Source: Candidatus Babelota bacterium
GTDB lineage: Bacteria; Babelota; Babeliae; Babelales; Vermiphilaceae
DNA length: 64,000 nucleotides
Assembly: GCA_004375875.1 (NCBI GenBank)
Contig: SOKE01000030.1
Coordinates: forward strand, 1 to 64,000
Direction of reading: 5' to 3'
Below, piece after piece: positions 13,775 through 39,415 of this stretch. Position 1 is the stretch's first letter; every line of letters starts with the position of its first letter. The notes under the pieces were generated by a model, which did not search any database, was not told the DNA's origin, and saw only the letters and a list, made by a program, of their open reading frames with translations. The translations under genes were made by a program, and so were the position numbers.

Positions 13775-15088
13775 ATGAAGGGATATTTAAAGGTAGAGCA
13801 TTCTACAAAGTTGCATGGTAAAGTTTCTTTAATCGGTGCTAAAAATGCGGTGCTTGTTATTATGGCATCATTGATTTTAACTGAAGGAAAATCAACATTA
13901 AAGAATGTTCCATTTTCTGATGATATAATGCAGATGATACAACTGTTACGTGATCTCGGTGCAGAGGTTTTATTTAATAAGGAGACACATACATTAGAAA
14001 TTGATACCACTTTTTTGGTACGTTGTCAGGTTAAAAAAGAGATAATGAAACAAATGCGTGCTTCAATTTTAGTGATGGGACCTCTCCTTGCGCGTTTTGG
14101 TAAAGTCAATATTGCGTTACCCGGTGGATGTATTATTGGTGCACGTCCAATCAATTATCATTTGAACAATTTGCGTAAAATGGGAGCTTCTATTCAAATT
14201 GAAGGAGAATATTTATTTGCTCATGCAAAAAAATTAAAATCGCAGCGCATTGTTCTTGAATATCCAAGTGTTGGGGCAACCGAAAATATTGTAATGATAG
14301 CTGTAGCCGCACAAGGAACAACACGTATTATCAATGCATCACTCGAACCTGAAGTATTAGATTTTATTGCCGTTTTGAAAAAAATGGGTGCGAAGATTGT
14401 GATTGAACCACCTGCGACAATTGCTATTGAAGGTGGTGCATTGCTCAAGCCGGTTGAACATACAATTATGTATGATCGTCTTGAAGCAGGATCATTATTG
14501 CTTGCGGCTGCAATTACGGGAGGAAAAATTGAACTTCCGCATGCACCAGCTTATAACCTTGATGTATTTTTACTGAAATTACAAGAGATGGGGCATTATA
14601 TAGAAATTGGTTCTGAAGGGATAGGAGTTACTTTAAAAGCAACGCATTCACCAAAGGCTGTTTCATTCAAGACAGCTCCTTATCCAGGATTTCCAACCGA
14701 TCTACAAGCACCAATGATGGTAGCTCAATGTTTAGCATCAGGAACAGCAACGATTGATGAAACAGTTTTTGAAAATCGATTACTTCATGTACATGAACTA
14801 CAAAAGATGGGTGCACAAATAAAAGTTGATGGAAGTCGTGCAACTGTGATTGGTGTGGATGAACTATATGGTACTCCAGTTATTGCTTCAGATATTCGTG
14901 GCGGTTGTGCTCTTTTGCTTGCAGGGTTGGCTGCTAAAGGAATTACCACAATATCTGGCGTGCATCATTTAAGTCGTGGCTATGAATCCATACAAAAAAA
15001 ATTGAATGATATGGGCGCGTCACTTGAATATGTAGATGCGGCTATGTTTGTACATCATAATTACGGTCGTATTATTGAATATCAATAG
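13775..15088 (+). CDS. murA: UDP-N-acetylglucosamine 1-carboxyvinyltransferase
   Basis: MurA transfers enolpyruvyl from phosphoenolpyruvate to UDP-GlcNAc, the first committed step of peptidoglycan synthesis, in the cytoplasm. The 437 residues cover the whole EPSP-synthase-like fold. Visible marks are GAKNAVL at 21-27 (the Lys/Asn pair), the catalytic loop PGGCIIGARP with Cys119 (the fosfomycin target), and YPGFPTDLQAPMM near residue 310 with the catalytic Asp. An AAGG site precedes the ATG. Its presence says this host-dependent organism still makes peptidoglycan precursors. Confidence 0.97.
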   Translation: MKGYLKVEHSTKLHGKVSLIGAKNAVLVIMASLILTEGKSTLKNVPFSDDIMQMIQLLRDLGAEVLFNKETHTLEIDTTFLVRCQVKKEIMKQMRASILVMGPLLARFGKVNIALPGGCIIGARPINYHLNNLRKMGASIQIEGEYLFAHAKKLKSQRIVLEYPSVGATENIVMIAVAAQGTTRIINASLEPEVLDFIAVLKKMGAKIVIEPPATIAIEGGALLKPVEHTIMYDRLEAGSLLLAAAITGGKIELPHAPAYNLDVFLLKLQEMGHYIEIGSEGIGVTLKATHSPKAVSFKTAPYPGFPTDLQAPMMVAQCLASGTATIDETVFENRLLHVHELQKMGAQIKVDGSRATVIGVDELYGTPVIASDIRGGCALLLAGLAAKGITTISGVHHLSRGYESIQKKLNDMGASLEYVDAAMFVHHNYGRIIEYQ

Positions 15089-33367: not shown

Positions 33368-35803
<2,436 letters not shown>

Positions 35804-36892: not shown

Positions 36893-36918
36893 ATTGGCCG
36901 ATGTAATTGGCCGATGTA
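36893..36918. repeat. 13-base tandem repeat covering the tRNA-Thr 5' end
   Basis: ATTGGCCGATGTA occurs at 36893-36905 and again at 36906-36918. The second unit contains the first nine bases of the tRNA, so the tRNA acceptor 5' strand has been duplicated outside the gene. Confidence 0.9.
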
Positions 36919-36985
36919 GCTCAGTTGGTAGAGCAATTGATTCGTAATCAATAGGTCGTCGGTTCAAATCCGACCATCGGCTCCA
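36910..36985 (+). tRNA. tRNA-Thr (anticodon CGT)
   Basis: The 76 bases fold into a full cloverleaf. The acceptor is GCCGATG / CATCGGC, the anticodon stem ATTGA / TCAAT with loop TTCGTAA, the T-loop GTTCAAATC, and CCA is encoded. Anticodon CGT reads ACG. The gene lies between the DksA/TraR gene and rpsI. Confidence 0.96.
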
Positions 36986-37508: not shown

Positions 37509-37570
37509 TCAATTAATTTTTATATTATTTGTTCTGCTATTATTTGTAGCTTAGGGAAGCAAAACTAATC

Positions 37571-39415
37571 GTGTCTAGTATTGTTGGATACATAGGAAAA
37601 AGGTTGAGTCGTACTGTTGTGCTTGAGGCACTCCAGCGACTTGAATATCGTGGTTATGATTGTGCTGGTTTTGCTTGTTTGCATCCAGAGAGTAATCGTA
37701 TTTTGTATGCAAAGGTTACAGAAAAATTGCTAGATCTGCAGCAACAATGTGAACAGAATAGTATTGATGGCAAGGTAGGTATAGGACATTTACGTCTAGC
37801 AACTCATGGCATGGTAACGCATGAAAATACACATCCGCAATTCGACTGTCAGAAATCGATAGCACTTGTTCATAATGGTATTATCGAAAATTATCATCGA
37901 CTGAAAGGGCAGCTTGAAGAGGCTGGCCATACTTTTCTTTCATCCACTGATAGCGAAGTTATTGCTCATTTTTTTGAAGCTTCATTGCGTTCACACAAAA
38001 CATGCAAAGATGCGCTGATTGATTTAGTTACTCAACTTGAAGGTGCTTATGCCTTTGCTGCAGTATTGCAGGAATATCCAGAATACATGGTTCTTGTGCG
38101 CAGATGTTCGCCACTTTATATTGGTATTGGTGATGATGAATTAATGACTTCTTCTGGACTGCGTGCATTGAGTGGTTTCTCGAATAAAATAGCTATTTTA
38201 CCGGATGAAAGCTTTGCGCTGATCCAAAATGATTTTATTGAGCTTTATGATTTTTCTGGCAAATCCTTACCGTTGCATACGCAAGAGATGACATTTAATA
38301 ATTGTGTGCATGAAAAGTGTGATTATGAGCATTATATGCTCAAAGAAATTTATGAACAAAAAAATGCAATTTATGCAACACTTGAGTTTTTAAATCTGAT
38401 TAGTCCAAATATTTGGGAGCATGTTGGTATACCTGTAAAAAAGGTGCAGCAATTAGAACGTATTCATCTAATTGGATCTGGATCTTCGTGGCATGCAGCG
38501 TGTATAGCACAATTTTTCTTTGAGCATGTTGCACAATTGCCAACACAAGTTTCGCTTTCATCTGAATTCCGTTTTATGCCATTGTTGCCGACTGATAATA
38601 CGATTTATGGCTTGCTTTCTCAATCAGGTGAAACAGCTGATACTTTGGAGGCGCTTCGTCTGATCAATAATATGGACTTTCCAACAATAGCCTTAACGAA
38701 TGAACCGTCAAGCACTCTTGTGCGTGAAGCAAATGGATTTTTGTTAACACAGGCTGGTCATGAGCAAGCTGCAGCGTCAACTAAATCATTTTCAACGCAG
38801 CTTGTGGTGCTTTATTGGTTTGCACATCGTTTAGCGCTTGAGAAAGATATTATTGATGAATCGCATCTTCAAACAGCAGAAAAGGATTTGCTCATAGCGG
38901 CTGAAGTTCTTGAGAATAGTATTGAGAATTACAAATTTGTTATCGAACAAACATTTGCAAAAAAGTATTCCCATTATCAGAATATTATTTTCTTAGGACG
39001 TCATATTAGTTATCCTTTTGCAATGGAAGCGACCCTTAAACTCAAAAAAATTTCCTATATGTTTGCTGAATGTTATCCTGCCGGTGAGTTAAAGCATGGC
39101 CCTTTAACATTAATTGATGCTACCCGACTGGTATTTCTTTTTTCTCATCCAGACCCATCTATTTATCGGAAGTTTCTTACGAATGCACAAGAAATTAAAG
39201 CACGTGGTGGTCACATTGTAGCATTTCTTTTTGAAGATCAACATGAGCTTAAAGTACTGGCCGATCATTCATTTGTTATTCCAACAGTAAAACCACTGCT
39301 TACTCCTATTGCAATGGCTGGCTTGATGCAATTTTTTATCTACCAAATTGCCAAAGAACTTAATTGCCCAATTGATAAACCACGCAATATTGGCAAGACC
39401 GTGATTGTAGAGTAG
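37571..39415 (+). CDS. glmS: Glutamine-fructose-6-phosphate aminotransferase with Cys1 replaced by Ser
   Basis: GlmS makes glucosamine-6-phosphate from fructose-6-phosphate using glutamine nitrogen, feeding peptidoglycan and LPS. The 614 residues hold an N-terminal glutaminase domain and two SIS sugar domains (LIGSGSSWHAACIAQ, SQSGETADTLEAL) with the closing KPRNIGKTVIVE. The protein starts MSSIVGYIGKRLS where the family has MCGIVGYIG: the N-terminal nucleophile cysteine is Ser (TCT). The other glutaminase residues remain (RLATHG, ALVHNGIIENY, STDSEVIAH). The GTG start has AGGGA ahead and no upstream alternative in frame. It may act with free ammonia, or this may be a sequence error. Confidence 0.95.
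   Translation: MSSIVGYIGKRLSRTVVLEALQRLEYRGYDCAGFACLHPESNRILYAKVTEKLLDLQQQCEQNSIDGKVGIGHLRLATHGMVTHENTHPQFDCQKSIALVHNGIIENYHRLKGQLEEAGHTFLSSTDSEVIAHFFEASLRSHKTCKDALIDLVTQLEGAYAFAAVLQEYPEYMVLVRRCSPLYIGIGDDELMTSSGLRALSGFSNKIAILPDESFALIQNDFIELYDFSGKSLPLHTQEMTFNNCVHEKCDYEHYMLKEIYEQKNAIYATLEFLNLISPNIWEHVGIPVKKVQQLERIHLIGSGSSWHAACIAQFFFEHVAQLPTQVSLSSEFRFMPLLPTDNTIYGLLSQSGETADTLEALRLINNMDFPTIALTNEPSSTLVREANGFLLTQAGHEQAAASTKSFSTQLVVLYWFAHRLALEKDIIDESHLQTAEKDLLIAAEVLENSIENYKFVIEQTFAKKYSHYQNIIFLGRHISYPFAMEATLKLKKISYMFAECYPAGELKHGPLTLIDATRLVFLFSHPDPSIYRKFLTNAQEIKARGGHIVAFLFEDQHELKVLADHSFVIPTVKPLLTPIAMAGLMQFFIYQIAKELNCPIDKPRNIGKTVIVE

Follow-up and report, generated by a model that had tools for sequence, protein, structure and literature searches.

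A GlmS homologue without its catalytic cysteine, and a GlmU without its acetyltransferase half, suggest loss of glucosamine synthesis in a Dependentiae lineage

Introduction

UDP-GlcNAc synthesis is near universal in walled bacteria. Eukaryotic-type GlcNAc use involves NAGK, AGM1 and UAP1, and serine is the nucleophile in some Ntn-hydrolases. In bacterial GlmS, catalysis in the glutaminase half rests on a single residue, Cys1, and in the isomerase half on Glu488, His504 and Lys603, with Val399 among the active-site contacts (PMC9272926). Trp74 acts as the gate of the GlmS channel (PMC7948480). A full-length homologue without an N-terminal Cys has been described for another class II amidotransferase, the crenarchaeal PurF' (PMC3261824). 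A literature search found neither a GlmS without its Cys nor a report of GlmS loss in Dependentiae. Here we describe a GlmS homologue of this kind from an intracellular bacterium of the Dependentiae (Babelota) and consider how the cell may obtain UDP-GlcNAc.

Genomes and methods

The window, a 64-kb stretch of DNA analysed as a whole, lies on contig 27 (C27) of a 927 kb draft genome (G000; 37 contigs, 94% complete). The comparison sample comprised 68 Dependentiae genomes from the family and order to which the window genome belongs, and from these 49 other GlmS sequences were taken with their true starts. There was no congeneric genome among the 29 genomes of the family, and contig collections gave more distant Dependentiae and others. 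Presence and absence of genes were called from E-value tables on draft genomes. Rates were compared across the 25 genomes carrying both glmS and gyrB, with GyrB as the single control gene. For structure prediction, the closest intact GlmS homologue was modelled with the same sequences as the GlmS of the window.

Results

The glmS-like gene and its missing nucleophile

The following features lie in the window at the gene and upstream of it.

36910-36982 (+), tRNA gene (RF00005 in Rfam, 78 bits), with rpsI and glmS downstream of it
37571-39415 (+), glmS-like gene, 614 aa, GTG start, frame uninterrupted
37574-37576 (+), TCT, encoding Ser2 where the nucleophile, Cys1 of the mature enzyme, would stand; Cys in 49/49 relatives

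The predicted protein has the usual layout, with a class II glutaminase domain (1-240) and, starting near residue 250, two SIS domains, and it matches the TIGR01135 glmS profile at 596.5 bits (cut-off 418). No glmS ribozyme match was found near the gene with Rfam. The draft genome yielded no second glmS and no other SIS-domain protein, although at 94% completeness and in 37 contigs an intact glmS could sit in a gap.

Positions 37571-37579 read GTG TCT AGT (Met-Ser-Ser), and the first-pass annotation was right that the N-terminal Cys is replaced: when related GlmS sequences are aligned, all 49 carry Cys in the column of codon 2. No alternative start restores the residue, because an in-frame TAG at 37547-37549 leaves only L-R-E-A-K-L-I ahead of the GTG. 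The annotation had further counted two codons as departing from the norm, and had argued from this against a base-call error. That count does not hold, since the residue after Cys is Ser in 30 of the 49 relatives (Gly in 16, Thr in 3), which makes the second Ser ordinary in Dependentiae. The group norm is Met/Val-Cys-Ser, and a single base, TGT to TCT, separates the GlmS of the window from it. The argument against a base-call error thus fails at codon 2, and it is the multi-base changes elsewhere in the gene that make the degeneration real.

Further losses in both halves of the enzyme

Apart from the N-terminus, the first-pass annotation took the glutaminase domain and the two isomerase domains to look intact, which proved wrong. 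Eight sites that are invariant in 49/49 relatives are altered (C2S, G51E, W76L, D196G, V401A, E493K, L607I and A608G, numbered on the predicted protein); among the corresponding E. coli residues are Cys1, Trp74, Val399, Glu488, Leu601 and Ala602. Two nearly invariant sites have also changed, giving T72L and T302S (E. coli numbering). The altered codons beyond the start, with residues in E. coli numbering, are listed here.

37790-37798 (+), TTA CGT CTA, T72L and W74L on either side of the kept Arg73, in the Q loop at the ammonia-channel gate
38156-38158 (+), D192G; Asp invariant in 49 relatives
38771-38773 (+), V399A, isomerase active-site residue, from the alignment to relatives (PMC9272926)
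39047-39049 (+), AAA, E488K, catalytic isomerase residue; Glu in 49/49 relatives (PMC9272926)
39389-39394 (+), L601I and A602G, adjoining the kept Lys603, from the alignment to relatives

The Trp74 column is Trp in 49/49 relatives, and the codon found here is CTA. In the isomerase triad, Glu488 is replaced by Lys, and His504 and Lys603 are kept. Substrate-binding residues have mostly survived (Arg73, His77, Asn98, Gly99, Asp123, Ser303, Gln348, Ser349, Thr352, His504 and Lys603); the sugar-phosphate loop Ser347-Gln348-Ser349-Thr352 is present, and the phosphate loop reads SQSGETADT.

Relaxed selection and the GyrB control

A gene on the same contig as glmS served as the control for sequence quality and rate.

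33368-35788 (-), gyrB

In the window genome, 8 of 54 invariant sites of the glutaminase part and 8 of 95 of the SIS part of GlmS are altered, against maxima of 3 and 5 in the other 24 genomes. For its GyrB the count is 4 of 276, which is unremarkable beside the 0-7 seen in the others. The terminal branches of the two GlmS parts are 0.56 and 0.51 (medians 0.28 and 0.23), and that of GyrB is 0.26 (median 0.28). Selection on GlmS is relaxed relative to GyrB, in both halves of the protein. A fast-evolving or badly assembled genome was considered as the cause and is ruled out by the ordinary GyrB on the same contig.

The same data bear on the possibility that the missing Cys is an artefact of sequencing, assembly or start choice. 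A Cys to Ser change takes one base, which is in its favour; the further active-site losses include changes of two or three bases (three for W76L, TGG versus CTA, and two each for T74L and D196G, in the numbering of the predicted protein), and these therefore reflect evolution rather than base-call error. The frame is intact, an upstream start is absent, GyrB is normal, and the truncation of GlmU described below sits on another contig, so that we regard an artefact as very unlikely.

Judged by how many of the invariant sites have changed, GlmS carries an estimated excess of about 58 missense changes. Under neutral decay, about 3.8 stops would be expected to accompany them, and the probability of no stop over 614 codons is about 0.02. 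The open frame therefore points either to a recent loss of function after partial relaxation or to a non-catalytic role.

The second of these, that GlmS was retained for a non-catalytic task such as binding a regulator, another protein or a sugar phosphate, overlaps with the explanation that we prefer, and it is rather unlikely as an account in its own right. The intact frame despite many changes (P about 0.02 under neutrality) and the survival of the SQSGETADT loop, Lys603 and His504 are in its favour, and so is the overall fold, which is kept in the AlphaFold model (TM 0.89 to E. coli GlmS 2j6h). However, the changes at invariant sites are scattered over both domains, as they would be under relaxation, and they show no significant excess of conservative replacements over random missense changes (P 0.16), a comparison that says little about remaining selection. 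Model confidence is also lost at residues 493-506, where pLDDT is about 46; the equivalent blocks are modelled better in the nearest intact homologue (about 81 and 68), which is weak support.

GlmU and the remainder of the UDP-GlcNAc route

The GlmU of the window genome (444 aa; locus G000:C30:31841-32872) matches the TIGR01173 profile over positions 2-344 of 452 with 263 bits, under the cut-off of 367. The yardstick for its active sites was the E. coli GlmU sequence and its list of active-site residues; full-length GlmU relatives confirm the residue columns used, with the exception of R333 and K351, at which these relatives differ from one another. All 10 uridyltransferase residues checked are kept, and 0 of 9 acetyltransferase residues. 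Homology stops near E. coli residue 347, after which the same frame continues into an unrelated Ser/Asn/Lys-rich tail, and the other frames past about residue 347 hold no convincing remnant of the lost half. One further GlmU match in the genome is short (43 bits) and is probably a different sugar nucleotidyltransferase. The draft genome contains no recognisable GlcN-1-P acetyltransferase and no NagB, a possible reverse route.

GlmM is present (G000:C29:21397-22689), as is a consumer of the pathway product.

13775-15088 (+), murA (profile match G000:C27:13784-15028, 484 bits, above cut-off)

As MurA uses UDP-GlcNAc, the cell still needs the end product of the pathway.

These findings weigh on the two readings in which GlmS would still make glucosamine-6-phosphate, both of which the first-pass annotation had offered. 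In one, the glutaminase is dead and the isomerase half takes free ammonia from the host. The retained His504 and Lys603 fit such an enzyme, and class II amidotransferases can retain ammonia-dependent activity after replacement of the N-terminal Cys, as in E. coli PurF (PMC3261824). Yet the catalytic Glu488 is Lys and both Val399 and Ala602 are altered, and with GlcN-1-P acetyltransferase absent from the draft genome there would be no bacterial route onward to UDP-GlcNAc. Ammonia use would require a working isomerase site as well as acetylation of GlcN-1-P further on, and with both lost it is very unlikely. In the other reading, Ser would have become the nucleophile, for which some Ntn-hydrolases give a precedent, and GlmS would work with glutamine. 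Arg73, His77, Asn98, Gly99 and Asp123 are all in place for this, but the glutamine loop has lost Trp74 and Thr72, the damage includes the isomerase site, and GlmU would be unable to acetylate the product. Since no glutamine-dependent activity is detectable once the Cys of E. coli PurF is exchanged for Ser (PMC3261824), and the glutamine loop here is altered, a serine nucleophile is the least probable of the readings considered. The third option offered, a purely structural glutaminase, comes closest; it falls short in stopping at the glutaminase, for the Glu488 to Lys change and the relaxation in both domains extend the degeneration to the whole enzyme.

Short GlmU and GlmS loss across Dependentiae

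Short GlmU is the only GlmU in 11 of the 68 genomes, and none of the 11 has an intact GlmS (ten have no GlmS and the other is the window genome); where GlmU is full-length, intact GlmS is found in 42 of 50. The association is strong (Fisher p = 1.8e-7), although the relatedness of the genomes means that p overstates their independence, and it persists among genomes at least 90% complete (2.0e-6) and when the window genome is left out (5.8e-7). On the GlmU tree, in which most forks are weak, truncation takes five changes, and at least three of them are required by branches with strong support. GlmU truncation thus happened several times. A single ancient paralogue as the origin of short GlmU is not supported, as the truncations fall at several places of a weakly resolved tree. 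In four relatives (G005, G011, G014 and G016), a short GlmU occurs beside a full one.

Most short-GlmU genomes keep MurA, so UDP-GlcNAc is still needed there. A complete mur pathway has been reported for C. destructans (Chromulinavorax), with the source of UDP-GlcNAc not discussed (PMC6561590). In G005 (95% complete), murA is apparently in two overlapping pieces with two TAG stops (G005:C4:42337-43568). A full GlmU without GlmS was recorded in eight genomes (G007, G010, G013, G030, G033, G037, G054 and G057), which would depend on an outside source of glucosamine or GlcN-6-P. Two BcrAD/BadFG kinases occur in G033, and both G033 and G054 have strong APH matches.

Extended GlmS and split GlmU in relatives

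Six GlmS sequences (L029, L033, L037, L038, L039 and L040, from G016, G014, G026, G028, G020 and G005, respectively) form a separate clade with 100/100 support. They carry an extension of some 20-35 aa that is hydrophobic, resembles a signal peptide and ends right before the catalytic Cys, and cleavage of this extension would, judging from the sequence, expose the Cys of an exported GlmS. A normal GlmS copy is also present in five of the six genomes (G014, G026, G028, G020 and G005), and G016 has the extended copy only. Halves of GlmU also occur as separate genes beside a full GlmU, either uridyltransferase-only (in tandem) or acetyltransferase-only. The split-GlmU and GlmU-like loci are the following.

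G026:C4:39401-40929
G026:C15:17541-18179
G028:C30:21050-22557
G028:C37:39850-40491
G020:C19:158237-158776
G020:C18:45924-48011

In G020, a GlmU-like domain and a phosphohexomutase share one 770-aa frame. Because the split-GlmU genomes share a genus with three of the signal-peptide GlmS copies, the two features together are possibly parts of an exported hexosamine pathway.

Discussion

The explanation that best accounts for these observations, to which we give a probability of about two in three, is that this lineage has stopped de novo synthesis of GlcN-6-P, that its GlmS is a dead relic or pseudoenzyme, and that UDP-GlcNAc is made from an N-acetylated host sugar through GlmM and the short GlmU. 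The only GlmS of the genome probably no longer hydrolyses glutamine, with Cys1 gone and the Q loop altered, and it has probably lost ketose-aldose isomerisation through the Glu488 to Lys change. It may persist as a still foldable relic or as a non-catalytic pseudoenzyme; the intact 614-codon frame argues against long free drift, and the retention of most substrate-binding residues also counts against the explanation. GlmU has dropped, in step, the acetyltransferase half that would serve the GlmS-derived product, leaving the uridyltransferase site complete.

If both GlmS and the acetyltransferase are unusable, the sugar that enters the route to UDP-GlcNAc must carry its acetyl group from the start. 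The host would then supply GlcNAc, GlcNAc-6-P or GlcNAc-1-P, and the retention of GlmM suggests entry at GlcNAc or GlcNAc-6-P. In the proposed order, the entering sugar would be converted to GlcNAc-1-P via GlmM and uridylylated by the short GlmU to give UDP-GlcNAc for MurA. The loss of GlmS activity, the host supply and the substrate of GlmM are parts of this route that we infer from sequence. The putative salvage entry step is the weakest link of the route: searches of three kinase families gave no ROK, BcrAD/BadFG (NAGK) or APH match for a GlcNAc kinase in the draft genome, and no match to TIGR00881 for a hexose-phosphate/organophosphate importer was found in the window genome.

A broader and more doubtful extension is that Dependentiae repeatedly swap the canonical UDP-GlcNAc route for a host-derived acetylated sugar phosphate and a uridyltransferase-only GlmU, with the window genome as an intermediate in which GlmS is dead and has perhaps taken on a new non-catalytic role. 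That MurA is kept where GlmS and the acetyltransferase half of GlmU are repeatedly dropped points to an unrecognised uptake of host amino sugars, with an importer or a kinase still to find. As the window genome seems to be in the middle of the loss, the order of events can be tested. The case also has a bearing on annotation, as the family score alone, well above the GlmS cut-off, would wrongly credit the organism with the pathway.

Comparison with known systems

With functional GlmS (TIGR01135; E. coli 1jxa/2j6h), the protein described here agrees in being full-length, in the order of its domains, in its fold and substrate-binding loops, and in having Lys603 and His504, but it is without Cys1, Trp74 and Glu488, and its genome is without a recognisable GlcN-1-P acetyltransferase. 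The crenarchaeal PurF' resembles it as a full-length homologue kept without the N-terminal Cys (PMC3261824); PurF', however, adjoins an intact PurF paralogue, whereas this GlmS is the sole copy and its second active site is also damaged. Compared with bifunctional GlmU (TIGR01173), the GlmU of the window genome has the complete uridyltransferase half in common, and differs in lacking the acetyltransferase residues and in its unrelated tail past about residue 347. The proposed route would share the logic of eukaryotic-type GlcNAc use, namely an acetylated sugar phosphate, a mutase and a uridyltransferase with no GlcN-1-P acetylation; in the window genome, where no kinase was found among the ROK, BcrAD/BadFG and APH families searched, the mutase and the uridyltransferase belong instead to bacterial families.
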